From: Hyperoodon ampullatus
Taxonomy: Eukaryota > Chordata > Mammalia > Artiodactyla > Ziphiidae
DNA length: 64,000 nt
Direction of reading: 5' to 3'
NCBI GenBank assembly: GCA_949752795.1
Contig: OX457057.1
Span: forward strand, 157,147,980 to 157,211,979
Shown: positions 31,633-37,540 of the stretch, piece after piece
Position numbering within the stretch: the first letter of the stretch is position 1
How the letters are laid out: every line of letters begins with the position of its first letter
Program-made: the position numbers and the translations under genes
The notes under the pieces: model-generated
Seen by the model: the letters and a program-made list of their open reading frames with translations, nothing else
Told to the model about the DNA's origin: nothing
The model's database searches: none

Positions 31633-31790
31633 GGAGAATCTCAAGTTTTTCACCAGAGAGCGCAATGAAGAAAAATTCAGAATACTAATTAGCAAACATT
31701 TACCTCATCTACAGAAAAATTCAAACATACCTGTCACACATCTCATTTTAAACAGCAATGGTTCCTTCCAGTAGAAATTGGTTGTGAAAT

Positions 31791-32228
31791 TGTTACCGAG
31801 TCCAAGTTCATACTGCTCACCACATGACAGGCCAATAAATCGCAAGATAAATTGTTGGGGCAAGGAATAGTGACTTTATTCAGAAAGCCAGCAGACCGAG
31901 AAGATGGTGGACTTGTGTTCCAAAGAACCATTTTGCCTGAGCTAGAATTCAGGCTTCTTTTGTACTAAAAGGGGAGGAAGTAAAGCCAAACATTTCCTGG
32001 CCAGTCAGCCTCTGGAGGGGAAGTTTAATTTCTCTCTTCCTGCAGTCATTCACAGGAGGGCCTTGTCAGGATGTTTCATGTGAGCTAAATGATGGTATTT
32101 TAGCTTAATGCTCATTACTGGGGAGGCAGGGTTCCCAGAGATGGGCCATTATGTATAATTTAAGCTTATAGGCAACATCCATTTAGTGATTAACTTGTAA
32201 TAGAATACAAAGATTCTTCCCTATTACA
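31791..32228 (-). mobile_element. ERV 3' LTR
   Basis: Minus-strand ends are TGTAATAGGG and CGGTAACA. The AATAAA polyadenylation signal reads on + as CTTTATT at 31871-31877. It matches the LTR at 37096 along its whole length with roughly one difference in ten by eye. Confidence 0.93.
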
Positions 32229-32459
32229 ATTCCCTACTGTCAATGTCCATTCCACAATCTTGTGGGGAAAGGGACAAGACTGCTTTGACTACTTTCTGCT
32301 GAATGAGGGTGATAAATATTCTCTAGAATCTTTAGTCAGTAGTAAAATCCTCTTCCCTTTTTTATCTACCACTATTTAAACCTGATGAAACCCCTTAGCA
32401 TGTTGTTTTCTAATTTGTAATTGAACTTGGAGTTTTGGTTCCAGCTCCCAATACATATA
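32229..32459 (-). other. ERV interval between integrase and 3' LTR; env nearly absent
   Basis: Only about 230 bp lie where a complete provirus has an env gene of some 2 kb. Minus-strand text includes short readable peptides but no signal peptide, furin site or fusion peptide that I can recognise. A polypurine stretch AAAAAAGGGAAGAGG (minus strand of 32350-32365) is present but is not next to the LTR. Confidence 0.6.
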
Positions 32460-33149
32460 CTAAATTCCTGTGCTATTTATTTGGACAAAATTAAACAAAT
32501 AGGTTGACCCTTCTCCAGCTATAATGAAATTACCATCTACTTTAGTTGGATAGGCAGACCTGTTGGAGGCAACTGCATGAACAGAGGTTAGCATAGTGCC
32601 CAAACTTTTAACATAATGGGCAACTGCTATGCCTTTTAGAGCATTTATAGATTCTCTCACCAGGGCAGACACCTGGAATGGCCTATCACACGATATTTCA
32701 AAGGGGGTTAATTTAAGCCTGCTTCTGGGAGCCACTGATCCATAGTAGGGTAACTGGCAAGGCCCTATCCCAAGAAAATTAGTATCTTGAGATAATTTTA
32801 ATAGTGTTCCTTTTTAACAATGTTCCTTTTTAATGTATGATTCTTTTTCTTGTTTTTTTTCTGTTGACTGTGGTCTCCAGATTGAATGCAGTTTCAATGC
32901 CTTAATCCAAATCAGGGGATAATTTCCTTAAGGAGGGCTTTAACTACTTCAAGACTTTCTGTACAAGTGGAATATGCTTCCACTCACCCTGAAAAAGATA
33001 AAACACTAGCAGATTATCTAAAATTTCCTGCAACTCGAGGCATTTGAGTAAAGTCTATTTTCCACTTCCTGGTAGAGCAGGTGCTCCTGTGTTGAGTCCC
33101 CATCTGGGGAGGTCTGACAGTAGTCATTGTGTTATTTTTAGCACAAATC
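32460..33149 (-). pseudogene. Retroviral integrase (pol 3' part) remnant
   Basis: Integrase joins viral DNA to the host genome. The minus strand from 33149 reads a gamma-type integrase. Near 33040-33070 is KIDFTQMPRVAGNF, where DFTQMP holds the first catalytic Asp. Near 32965-32985 SFSG-VEAYST corresponds to the TFSGWVEA block. Then VVKALLKEIIP precedes FGL. Near 32675-32705 RLKLTPFEISCDRPFQV corresponds to the SPFEILYGRPF block. In-frame stops and deletions remove the second Asp block and scatter the rest. The visible start, just after the ITGA2 part, is CAKNNTMTTVRPPQMGTQH, so the N-terminal zinc-binding half is missing. Non-functional. Confidence 0.85.
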
Positions 33150-33361
33150 ATGGTCTTCTGCAAGCACCTTTCATTATTTTCTTTAAGTAAACCCCCGGAG
33201 GTTACTCTGGATGATTATTGGTCTGCATCAATTGTGATGTTATGTACAATGGCCACTTGATTGTTTTGCTTAGTAGGTCTTGCTTAGTAGGTCTAAACTC
33301 ACACTGAAGCAGAGTTTGAGGTTCATCTCAGAATTCTTGTTGAGCCAAGTGATTTTTTTCT

Positions 33362-33570
33362 TTTTTTTTTTTTTTTTTGCGGTACGTGGGCCTCTCACTG
33401 TTGTGGCCTCTCCCGTTGCGGAGCACAGGCTCCGGACGCGCAGGCTCAGCGGCCATGGCTCACGGGCCCAGCCGCTCCGTGGCATGTGGGATCCTCCCAG
33501 ACCGGGGCACGAACCCGTGTCCCCTGCATTGCCAGGCGGACTCTCTACCACTGCGCCACCAGGGAAGCCC
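33362..33570 (-). mobile_element. CHR-type SINE, antisense, in the ERV ITGA2 segment
   Basis: T run then GCGGTACGTGGGCC..., ending CCACCAGGGAAGCCC. The 13-bp TSD GTGATTTTTTTCT lies at 33349-33361 and 33571-33583. Confidence 0.95.
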
Positions 33571-33700
33571 GTGATTTTTTTCTGGTGCGAATGAAACATC
33601 TGCAGATACATCAGGAATACTTGGGACCAGAGTTGAACAACCTGTCCAAGGGCACCAATGGACACATCAGTGATGGAATCCCCATTTAAATCTCCATAGC

Positions 33701-33996
33701 TGGGAGGGGGAAGGGTAAGCTGTGACAAAGCAAGAGAGTGGCATGGACATATATACACTACCAAACGTAAAATAGATAGCTAGTAGGAAGTAGCCGCATA
33801 GCACAGGGAGATCAGCTAGGTGGTTTGTGACCACCTAGAGGGGTGGGATAGGGAGGGTGTGAGGGAGGGAGATGCAAGAGGGAAGGGATATGGGAACATA
33901 TGTATAACTGATTCACTTTGTTATAAAGCAGAAACTAACACACCACTGTAAAGCAATTATACTCCAATAAAGATGTTAAAATAAATAAATAAAAAA
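33701..33996 (+). mobile_element. 5'-truncated L1 3' end in the ERV ITGA2 segment
   Basis: About 296 bp of L1-1-type 3' UTR (AGGGTAAGCTGTGACAAAGC to AATAAAGATG plus an AAAT-rich tail). The 14-bp TSD TAAATCTCCATAGC lies at 33687-33700 and 33997-34010. It splits the GDLNGDSITD calcium loop of the ITGA2 fragment. Confidence 0.95.
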
Positions 33997-34639
33997 TAAA
34001 TCTCCATAGCCATCTAGGGATCTCCAAAAGTATTGAATATGGCTTCTAAAAGCTCCATTGGATCCCAGGATTTTCTGGGAATACCTCATGTGAATGGTGC
34101 CCTCATGACCACTGTAGATGTACACAGCTCCAGAGTTCTGATTTTCCAAAGGTGAATCAACGATCACATCATTAAAGCCATCCATGTTGATGTCTGAAAG
34201 AGCTGCAATGGCTGAACCAAACTGAGCATTTTCAACACCCTCGGGGCCTTCCACAAATTGGTGCCAATTCAAAACACCCATTGTGATAGTAAATGGGTAG
34301 ATTGTTCCTTTCTCTTTCTTTAGGTCATTCATGTGCATAGGCACACCTATCAAGAGCACATCTGTAATGGTGTCTTTATCCACATCGACTGAACACAGCA
34401 CACTACCAAAATAGCCGATCTGGTCACCTCTGTGAGACTGAGTAACTGACACTGCCATTCTCATGAACACTGTGTAGTACTGTCTGGCTAGTATAATTCA
34501 CCCCAGTAGCAAAGTGGACACTTTTTCCAGTAGGAATTGAAGCCACAGAGTAACCTAAATACGAGCGCCATCTGTAGGCTTAAAGCATGTTCTGGTGGGA
34601 CTCTGATGTCAAGCTGTTCTGGTGAAAAACTTCAGGGTG

Positions 34640-34807
34640 AGGTCTATCAGACTGTTCATCAGCTCATTCCTCACTGTCAGTTTCACTTGGGGCTCCTGTG
34701 GGGAATTAGGTGCCTCAAGTCCAAGGGAGCCCCTGGGCCTCTTCATTCATCAGAGTGATCCTCTCTTTCTACCATATGAGAGGCTCTCAACTTTTATTGT
34801 TTTTCTT
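34640..34807 (-). pseudogene. Retroviral protease start, cut off at the ITGA2 junction
   Basis: On the minus strand, downstream of the nucleocapsid zinc knuckle, the text reads GPGAPLDLRHLIPH-type leader, then EPQVKLTVRNELMNSLID. This matches the beta strand leading to the retropepsin active site, but the expected Asp-Thr-Gly triplet after LID is replaced by unrelated residues. The viral sequence therefore ends within a few codons of 34655, or is scrambled there, close to where ITGA2 begins. Confidence 0.6.
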
Positions 34808-35660
34808 CTTATGTTTTAGTCTAGGCAATCTGTTTTCCAATGTTCTTCCTCCTTATGGCAGCACATTGTTCCTTCCCCAATGGTGACTTCTCTCTCGGGG
34901 TTACTCACCTTCTGGGAATCCAATGCCGCTGCCCAAAAAGTGGCATTTCGTTTTGCATCTTCCTTCTGTCGCTGTTCCTTGTTGAACACTTTAAAAGTAA
35001 CATCTGGGGCTTCCCTGGTGGTGCAGTGGTTGAGAGTCCGCCTGCCGATGCAGGGGACATGGGTTCGTGCCCCGGTCTGGGAAGATCCCACATGCCGCAG
35101 AGCGGCTGGGCCCGTGAGCCATGGCCGCTGAGCCTGAGCATCCCGAGCCTGTGCTCCGCGACGGGAGAGGCCGCAACACTGAAAGGCCCGCGTACCACCA
35201 AAAAAAAAAAAAGAAAGAAAAGAAAAAAAAAAAAGAAAGAAAAGCAACATCTACCAATTGAGAAGGGTTCATTCCAAATGCATCATCTAATCTTTGCAAC
35301 TTTCTCTTGATATCTGAGGCACTTTGCCCAAAAAGGTCAAGTTTACCATTCTAATATTTTCAGGGGCCTCAGGATCTGCATTAGTATACTGTCTGCAGGC
35401 CTGATAAATCTTTTCCAAAAATTCAGAGGGGTCTTCATTTGTTTTTTTGCTGAATTTCTTGAATTTTGTTCAAACTCTTTTGCTTTGGTTCCCCTTTTTA
35501 AAGCCCTGCCAAGATGCACAAATAAGCAGTGTCCTAATAATGGTGTTCCTCCCTCACTGGGGTCCCAATTTGGTTCAGCTGTGGGTTCTGCCAAATGGGC
35601 TTCAAGTGTAGAAGATCCTCCTGTAAGGAGGTTTGCAATCTTCCCAATTAAACAAGCCTG
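34808..35660 (-). pseudogene. Retroviral gag remnant: capsid and nucleocapsid
   Basis: Gag builds the virion core. The minus strand reads PNWDPSEGGTPLL (near 35540), then ALKRGTKAKEFEQ and a frame-broken PADSILM region. Then come KLQRLDDAFGMNPSQLVDVA (35255-35310) and, after the SINE, VFNKEQRQKEDAKRNATF (34955-35000), the classic end of gamma-type capsid. A zinc knuckle CHKEEEHWKTDC (34815-34850) follows, with the first Cys of the CX2CX4HX4C pattern displaced. The matrix region is not recognised. The SINE at 35006-35239 splits the frame. Order and motifs fit class I ERVs. Confidence 0.85.
35006..35239 (+). mobile_element. CHR-type SINE in the ERV gag remnant
   Basis: GGGGCTTCCCTGGTGGTGCA to CGTACCACC followed by a long A/G-rich tail (35200-35239). 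The TSD AAAAGTAACATCT (34993-35005) has a one-mismatch copy at 35240-35252. Confidence 0.93.
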
Positions 35661-37095
35661 AGAAACCCAGGCGGCTGGTCATCTGCATTTAGCCTCCCAT
35701 GAAATAAAGACATAAAGGAAATTGCTCTGCCCCAGAGTGGCTCCTGGCCCAAACTGGGTGCCTTGTCAGGTCTTAGATGGCAATACCAGACCAAATCCCT
35801 GTAACCCAGGAACTAACACAGGATTTTCTAATTGGTCCCTATAAGGAGGGGCAGTCCTGAGCCCCAGTGTCAGGAACTGGGGCTAGATATGAATGGAAGG
35901 CGGGGGAAGGAGTGGATATATCAGAGCGGCTAAAACAGCTAGCCCAGGTGGAAGAATTAAGGTTTGAAGCAACATATCCTCACTTTCATTCCCTTCCTTT
36001 TCTTATTTTCCCTGATGTAGTAGCACAAATGCTTGCATAAAAAGGACTTCGTTATTATTCCCCACTTCTTCAGAAAATAGCTATAGAGTCATTCAAATCC
36101 ACTGTAAAACCATAAATAGCAATTGATCATCTCTAACCATTAAAAGGATGCCCTTTTGCCTTGGCATCAACCAACCAGGCTGAATTCTGGGCTAGGGCTT
36201 TTGGTGATTTTAGGAACCAAGTAGAACTTTTCTCTTCTCCCTGGGAATGTCCCATAGACAGGTTTTTTCTTTTTTGTTCCTTTCCCCCATTGGCATCAGT
36301 AAAAGTTTTAAATATCACAAAACTGATTTGGTTGTAAATGGAGAAACAGTACCAAACAAACTGAAATGAACAACCCAAAGAACAAAACAGAAAATCCTAA
36401 ATAAACCCTCAAGTTTGGTCTTGGGGTTTCACGTATACCATCGACACAGGAGACTGCAAACGATGTAATTAACCCAGCAAGGGTTGCAGTACATGGTGCA
36501 CAGGGTCCCAAGATAATCCTGCCTAAACCCCTTTGGAGATCCTGACAGGTACTGTGGCTACACATTGTTACAATAAAATAGCACCTACAATAAAATAGTA
36601 TCTTCTCACTTATGGATTCATGGCTGTAATCAGATCACTTAGGCAAAATGTGCCTCAGAGGACTTTTTAGGGATAGTTGAAATATTCCCCATTTTTTAAG
36701 AGACAGGAATACAAGACAAAACACAAACAGCACACACAAATGCTAGCATCCACAGAAATGAACTGGTTCACAAAGCAGGTAAAAGTCCAACAACCCTTCC
36801 CTCTTTCCAACAGGGTACCCCACTCAAATACAAAACAAACTTGTTTATTCTGGAGCAAAAACCCCAAACAGAGAGAAAATAAAGTTTCCAGCTGCACACA
36901 CCGGAGTGACTTACCCTAGTGTATGGAGCCTGTTGGTTCTTAAACGTCGATTCCTTGATCCAACTGCCAAGCTCTGGGGCAGCGGGTGCTGCTTCAGGGA
37001 ACTTTAAAGGGCAGGTCCTCAGGACAAGTGGTCCTGGCAGCTGCTAGAACCTTACCCCCAAATTCCCCAACTGGGGCGAGCTGCCCACCAAAAAC
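35661..37095 (-). other. ERV leader and upstream gag region, not resolved
   Basis: This lies between the 5' LTR and the recognisable capsid. The minus strand next to the LTR reads GTTTTTGGTGGGCAGCTCGC. A TGG begins six bases in, as a primer-binding site would, but I cannot assign the tRNA. No clear matrix protein, myristoylation start or PPPY late motif is visible. The frames are broken. Confidence 0.5.
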
Positions 37096-37536
37096 TGTTA
37101 CTGAGTCCAAGCTCATACTGCTCACCACACAACATGCCAATAAATCGAGAGGCAAGTTGTTAGGGCAAGGAATTGCGACTTTATTCGGAAAGCCAGCAGA
37201 CCGAGAAGATGGCGGACTCGTGCCCCACAGAACCATCTTGTCTGAGTTAGAATTCAGGCTTCTCTTATACTAAAAGGGGAGGGAGTAAAGCCAAACACTT
37301 CCTGGTTCCCGTCAGCCTCCAGCGGGGATGTGTTAATTTCTTTCTGCCTGCAGTCATTCACAGGTGGACCTAGTCAAGATGTTTCATGTGAGCTAAATGA
37401 TGGTATTTTAGCTTAATGCTTATTACCTGGGAGGCAGGGTTCCCAGAGATGGGCCATTATGTATCATTTAAGCTTACAGGTGACATCCCTTTAGTGATTA
37501 ACTTGTAATAGAATACAAAGATTCTTTCCTACTACA
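37096..37536 (-). mobile_element. ERV 5' LTR
   Basis: Minus-strand ends are TGTAGTAGGA and CAGTAACA. A TATA-like AGTATAAGAG (minus strand of about 37264-37273) lies upstream of AATAAA (+ strand CTTTATT at 37180-37186), in the order expected for U3-R. Confidence 0.92.
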
Positions 37537-37540
37537 AAAT

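Follow-up and report, generated by a model that had tools for sequence, protein, structure and literature searches.

In a 64,000-nt stretch of the Hyperoodon ampullatus genome (hereafter the window, meaning this stretch at its full length), a minus-strand provirus spanning 31791-37536 carries part of a spliced mRNA of the integrin alpha-2 gene (ITGA2). Capture of this mRNA by template switching before germline integration, as a sequence-only reading of the window had proposed, is in our assessment highly probable (roughly 0.86), and is supported by a second provirus on C19 with the same 5′ junction and unrelated flanks, by microhomology at the junctions, and by relatives of the virus that lack ITGA2. 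Capture of host genes by endogenous retroviruses (ERVs) is already known; this case is unusual in its apparent age, its coding exons with their splice joins, and its two different 3′ ends.

The provirus and its ITGA2 segment

The features of the provirus are collected in Table 1. Both LTRs have TG...CA ends and ATTT lies on either side, which bears out the paired LTRs and 4-bp target site duplication (TSD) described earlier. The window copy thus has the LTRs and TSD of an integrated transducing retrovirus, and no 3′ LTR was seen in the C19 stretches examined. Pfam support covers gag (Gag_p30, E 8.3e-07 at 35287-35469) and the FG-GAP repeats of the cargo; pro, RT and integrase were assigned by eye, and Pfam gave no match on two integrase-side pieces. 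In our by-eye reading, viral sequence picks up again within the C-x-x-C motif of the integrase zinc finger, and the missing part is therefore less than half of integrase; some of integrase has been lost, as claimed, but not its whole N-terminal half. The presumed L1-like piece is bounded by a 12-bp TSD (AAATCTCCATAG at 33688-33699 and 33998-34009) and is a later insertion, because it is absent from the C19 copy.

Table 1. Proviral, host-derived and inserted features (positions in the window)
Feature	Position	Strand	Remarks
5′ LTR	37096..37536	-	441 bp, TG...CA; TSD ATTT at 37537-37540
Leader and gag region	35263..37095	-	Pfam Gag_p30; alignable with the C19 provirus
Presumed SINE, later insertion	34999..35224	+	in the gag-pro interval; the SINE at 33353-33578 in inverted form
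Viral pro region, named by eye	34565..34998	-	ends at the 5′ junction
5′ junction microhomology	34561..34564	-	TCGT in the window, TCAT in C19
Spliced ITGA2 coding sequence	33147..34560	-	last bases of one exon, five exons and ~70% of a sixth
Presumed L1-like 3′ piece with A-rich tail, later insertion	33700..33997	+	298 nt, within the ITGA2 segment
Presumed SINE with poly(A), later insertion	~33353..33578	-	within the ITGA2 segment
3′ junction microhomology CATGAT	33147..33152	-	5-6 nt, ITGA2 / viral integrase region
Viral integrase region, named by eye	32460..33146	-	
3′ LTR	31791..32228	-	438 bp; TSD ATTT at 31787-31790; K2P to 5′ LTR 0.125

The ITGA2 insert, with the TCAT-type overlap included, occupies 33147-34564 in viral sense between the pro region and integrase; ITGA2 is indeed present in the range first given for it (33150..34640), and the edges of that range were wrong. 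A 381-base piece of it has at least five matches in the 2.83-Gb genome, namely itself, one on C19, and three exons of a gene on C4. Pieces of the window match this gene exon by exon and in order (C4:135451146-135461810) with AG/GT borders, so that the sequence aligns to ITGA2 as the sequence-only reading required. The translation of the C4 gene is integrin alpha-2, with sperm whale (98%), hippo (94%), and warthog (92%) as the first three matches listed in a protein search that gave at least 2512 matches at E up to 1e-30 (8000 candidates scored), the best 120 of which were used. Mapping against this same-genome gene, a check that had been suggested, revealed six exon joins, all spliced in the window, and the source was therefore a processed mRNA; the earlier description of an intronless, viral-sense ITGA2 sequence agrees with this. 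As in a transducing retrovirus, the window thus has viral sequence on both sides of a spliced, viral-sense host mRNA.

The segment covers residues 431 to ~726 (hippo numbering) and includes three Ca2+ motifs, at 495, 559, and 623. The cargo had been described as half of a propeller, and the Ca2+ motifs are there, but the segment extends past the propeller into what we take to be the start of the thigh region. As had been noted from the sequence, no poly(A), TSD, or ITGA2 start or stop codon was found at either window junction, and the poly(A) with TSD at the host piece and the mRNA 3′ end that characterize an L1-made processed pseudogene are absent.

A second ITGA2-bearing provirus, junctions, and relatives without ITGA2

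The match on C19 (C19:38590535-38590928, 83%) led to a second provirus with ITGA2, in which the identical ITGA2 base follows the identical viral base as in the window. Its ITGA2 segment is longer, with two more exon joins and an end within a further exon; eight joins are spliced, one of which lies at the border of two sequence stretches with a few bases missing. The virus is re-entered at a point equal to ~32870-32880 of the window, unlike in the window copy. Comparison of the window and C19 flanks gave no match except one SINE, on which ground segmental duplication was rejected as the source of the two copies. The same 5′ junction at two sites with unrelated flanks means that the fusion predates both insertions, and the chimera, with its 5′ junction common to both copies and its 3′ junction different, was copied as a unit. 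The genome thus holds at least two ITGA2-bearing proviral loci; no third was found among the matches to the 381-base ITGA2 piece or to the 92 viral nt that precede the 5′ junction. The C19 provirus has a 5′ LTR, and no 3′ LTR was seen within the C19 stretches examined, where the provirus ends at G000:C19:38589618 and below.

Relatives have GGCGCTCATGAAAA at the site of the 5′ junction, where the ITGA2 sequence is CAGTTCATATTTAG; the two have TCAT in common, which is intact in 6 of 10 relatives examined there. The junction (virus...[TCAT]ATTTAG) lies 10 nt, TCAT included, ahead of the end of an exon whose next join is spliced. We considered whether splicing had made it, and rejected this for its position 6-10 nt inside the exon. 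For the window 3′ junction, the sequences are GCATGATTTGTGC in relatives and ACCATGATAGTAA in ITGA2, with CATGAT common to both; among 16 relatives, the site is CATGAT in six (one in shifted register), CATGAC in three, another variant in three, and missing in four, and because of this variation the overlap is given as 5 or 6 nt. The C19 3′ junction has 2 nt (AT) common to virus and ITGA2. In 200,000 random virus/ITGA2 pairings, the chance of a microhomology of at least 4, 5, 6, and 2 nt was 0.020, 0.0064, 0.0022, and 0.165, respectively, and the C19 3′ overlap thus falls within chance. None of the three junctions (window 5′ and 3′, C19 3′) has poly(A) or a TSD at the host piece.

Viral sequence next to the junctions is found widely in the genome. 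The 92 viral nt that lead up to the 5′ junction match, in whole or in part, at least 29 further places besides C19, and the first 277 nt past the window 3′ junction match at least 39 places besides itself (40 of 56 candidates scored). All relatives examined across the junction sites (10 at the 5′ site, 16 at the 3′ site) are virus without ITGA2, and the search for related proviruses with and without the insert that had been proposed has therefore returned both kinds: C19 with it, and these relatives, found through junction-side viral sequence, without it. Relatives lacking the cargo, as a transducing retrovirus would have, are accordingly present.

An integrase match lies behind the pro match in 18 of the 29 relatives and in none of the other 11. 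The spacing between the two is 43-45 nt in six, 6 nt in one, 214 nt in one, 436-697 nt in five, 855 nt in one, 2.2-2.5 kb in three, and 9.2 kb in one. By these spacings, a complete pol between pro and integrase is the exception, and RT has often been lost where there is no ITGA2. Pol is missing from the window provirus, as the sequence-only reading held, but its replacement by ITGA2 does not follow: the loss of RT and RNase H cannot be attributed to capture, because relatives without ITGA2 have lost RT too. On helper-dependent replication, the RT-less relatives suggest movement in trans. The 43-45 nt class (C5:70754545, C14:47545807, C8:48781208, C3:11585773, C3:21673330, and C6:55083287 of G000) looks like a subfamily in which RT was lost once and which was then copied in trans. 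The 436-697 nt class (C2:171544761, C16:27194477, C17:62276074, C9:18175421, and C9:92900205 of G000), two of whose five members are ~200 nt longer, perhaps stems from one older RT deletion. Origin of the window integrase side from the 43-45 nt class was rejected for the three members examined (L028, L030, and L042), which are without the TTGTGC kept in the window; the integrase side was therefore derived from a fuller genome.

Recombination, age, and fate of the cargo

The gag regions of the two ITGA2-bearing copies have different histories. In a tree of ~0.75-1 kb and 13 rows (of 12 relatives, L050 was excluded for its short length), the window falls together with L051, a relative that lacks ITGA2, at 98/99, and the window and C19 are united in 0% of 200 bootstrap trees. 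The pro region of L051 (L027) continues without ITGA2. Private states common to the window and L051 reach 89 nt before the junction; contrary to this pattern, sites -416 and -294 near the junction are common to the window and C19 alone. Since the window gag groups with an ITGA2-less relative and not with C19, recombination took place after capture, and on these sequences a single capture requires at least one crossover near the junction. The window-L051 gag distance (0.128) is close to the window LTR-LTR distance (0.125, with bounds a few bases off the final ones), as against 0.164 between the window and C19 gag, and the window-L051 split is therefore about as old as the insertion, which recent gene conversion does not explain.

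The captured residues carry information on the donor. Both copies have states older than those of whales at 254 (T; whales A) and 39 (N; whales S, this genome's gene R), as does the window at 224 (D; whales V) and C19 at 334 (S; N in whales, and in goat and deer too). Artiodactyl states at 9, 47, and 294 are present in both copies. At residues 63 and 204, camels and both copies have S and I, as against A and V in pig, ruminants, hippo, and whales; V at 204 is also found in horse. The protein tree places both copies within artiodactyls (98/94), C19 beside camels (96/66), and unites the two in 2% of 200 bootstrap trees, with the caveat that the long branches of decayed rows pull to the base. In a topology test whose groups were named after the tree had been seen, grouping of the copies with whales was rejected (p-AU 0.015). 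Placements that were not rejected joined the copies to whales plus hippo (0.156), to a group of whales, hippo, and ruminants (0.233), or to every artiodactyl except camels (0.257), set them just outside the artiodactyls (0.262), or made them one clade (0.258). Judged from these residues, the capture is older than the ITGA2 changes common to sperm whale and gray whale, and it probably took place in an early artiodactyl, with any deeper placement tentative. For scale, the divergence of toothed from baleen whales is dated to ~36 million years, and in old whale ERVs the LTR distances have their peak at the value of the whale-hippo intron distance, according to the sections of PMC8297934 that treat these dates.

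Two other readings of the residues were tried. A camel-like donor fits at 63, 164, 165, and 204, and in C19 also at 158 (R), and was rejected for the absence of the camel states at 30, 82, 96, 149, and 159. Replacements at 41, 102, 165, and 280 were considered as marks of a common viral branch and mostly rejected, 102 and 165 being changes in this species' gene and 280 having no single codon common to the copies; only 41 is clean, with N to S in both copies and in 1 of the 120 listed ITGA2 proteins (P0037). The ITGA2 of this genome differs from that of sperm whale and gray whale at residues 39, 42, 102, 127, 165, and 275 (segment numbering), where it seems to have changed in the Hyperoodon lineage itself.

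Private changes over 847 aligned sites number 50 in the window, distributed 21/14/15 over codon positions 1/2/3, and 68 in C19 (25/21/22), an even spread that gives no sign of selection. The copies agree and the gene differs at 28 sites (8/3/17), and all three differ at four; the third-position excess at the 28 sites is expected if most of them are changes of the living gene since capture. No deletions or stops common to the ITGA2 of the window and of C19 were found. In the ITGA2 frame, both copies and 9 of the 10 relatives have a TAA 18 nt ahead of the junction, and a gag-pro-ITGA2 fusion through that point is therefore unlikely. With this stop upstream and a window piece that lacks the protein N-terminus, the oncogene-like product implied earlier is unlikely as well, and the cargo was probably a passenger that decayed neutrally.

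How ITGA2 was probably captured, and comparable cases

We propose that a gamma-like retrovirus lineage took in part of a spliced ITGA2 mRNA during reverse transcription. Initially, a chimeric transcript of 5′ LTR-gag-pro and ITGA2, joined beside an intact splice donor, would have been spliced and packaged. Reverse transcriptase copying a co-packaged viral RNA would then have switched to the ITGA2 part of the chimera at different points, and separate switches would have produced the window 3′ junction (CATGAT) and the C19 3′ junction (AT). Subsequent copy-choice recombination could have set the cargo onto different gag backbones, and a largely defective population, mobilised in trans, would have brought it into the germline at least twice. 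One 5′ junction, two 3′ junctions, spliced exons, and short overlaps are what classical two-step capture predicts, and within the capture reading we lean toward these two steps. Tentatively, and with somewhat less than even confidence, the loci may represent a fossil intermediate: a single chimeric virus-ITGA2 RNA, from which at least two independent 3′ switches were fixed in the germline, would have spread and recombined among trans-mobilised viruses in an early artiodactyl, ahead of the whale changes in ITGA2.

Capture in one step is a less favoured but substantial contender. A single cycle of reverse transcription would have made both junctions of a long insert, C19-like or longer, whose ITGA2 was later cut short at its 3′ side in the window copy, either by a template-switch deletion or through recombination with a relative that carried pol. 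The ITGA2 range of the window is contained in that of C19, which has more, the window 3′ junction has 5-6 nt of microhomology, backbone recombination is indicated by the gag tree and private states, and the same junctions would result from a long capture that the window copy then partly lost; unlike two steps, however, it gives no account of a 5′ junction just before an intact splice donor, a point that weighs little either way. As a counterpoint to capture of any kind, microhomology is also a product of DNA end joining. Post-integration rearrangement, in which a single fusion made in DNA was spread by segmental duplication or gene conversion, could appeal to L051 and the window lying 1.5 Mb apart on one contig, but the flanks are unmatched but for one SINE and the window-L051 gag distance, similar to that between the LTRs, is too big for late conversion, and we regard this history as quite improbable. 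We think equally little of two independent ITGA2 captures at the same spot: the differing gag backbones and 3′ ends and the separation of the copies in the protein tree would suit them, whereas the viral and the host base at the 5′ junction are identical in both copies, which also have in common the rare N to S replacement at residue 41.

Least credible of all is an L1-made processed ITGA2 pseudogene inserted in the provirus, with a deletion that took the poly(A), the ends, and part of pol. The intronless sequence alone is compatible with it, but the common 5′ junction in unrelated flanks would need the event in a master copy before both insertions, poly(A) and TSD are absent at three junctions, and both copies start and stop inside exons. 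The existence of the second copy rules out a pseudogene that entered the window locus once the provirus had integrated, and one inserted in a still active master provirus and then trimmed is unlikely. Two-step capture of a spliced mRNA remains our preferred account. With one common and one differing junction, and the host gene in the same genome, the order of retroviral transduction becomes testable on a natural case. The cargo also serves as a clock, since it keeps ITGA2 residues that have been altered in living whales and so dates the capture independently of LTR divergence. The loci further suggest that capture also occurs in a largely defective ERV population, with cargo of no evident viral use.

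Acute transforming retroviruses carry a piece of host mRNA in a gene-deficient virus, acquired via a chimeric RNA and recombination. Unlike these, the ITGA2 case shows no in-frame product, and we know of no transforming role for an ITGA2 fragment of the window type. FAM8A1, in an account attributed to Jamain (2001), is said to be a host gene transduced by a human ERV. It has been described as expressed, whereas the ITGA2 piece is a decayed fragment. No ERV with captured ITGA2 was found in searches of the open-licence PMC literature. Host-mRNA capture fixed in ERVs is described as relatively uncommon in portions of PMC4299795, which also give background on acute transforming retroviruses. The crocodilian CrocERV29 (KIT-ligand, KITLG) and CrocERV31 (nectin3) presented there resemble our case in that host mRNA was captured, several copies exist, and some relatives are without it; they differ, going by the same portions, in their near-complete ORFs with reported purifying selection, as compared with a neutral internal fragment that lies in pro-pol, has an upstream stop in frame, and has two different 3′ ends. 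Likewise, ERV-Hako, which carries SUSD6 or SPHKAP, is a mammalian ERV with a partial host transcript, and the SUSD6 piece occurs at several loci and in two ERV forms and was passed between host lineages (PMC11905727, excerpted sections). In those sections, ERV-Hako is a group II element with 3′-UTR pieces, whereas the ITGA2 case belongs to a gamma-like family and contains coding exons whose splice joins can be seen. Finally, excerpts of PMC5408686 describe LTR-mediated retroposition, with maize Bs1, in which template switching at short stretches of similarity joins an mRNA to an LTR element, as in our case; unlike what those excerpts describe, the ITGA2 element is a retrovirus-like provirus, and the chimera itself was recopied.
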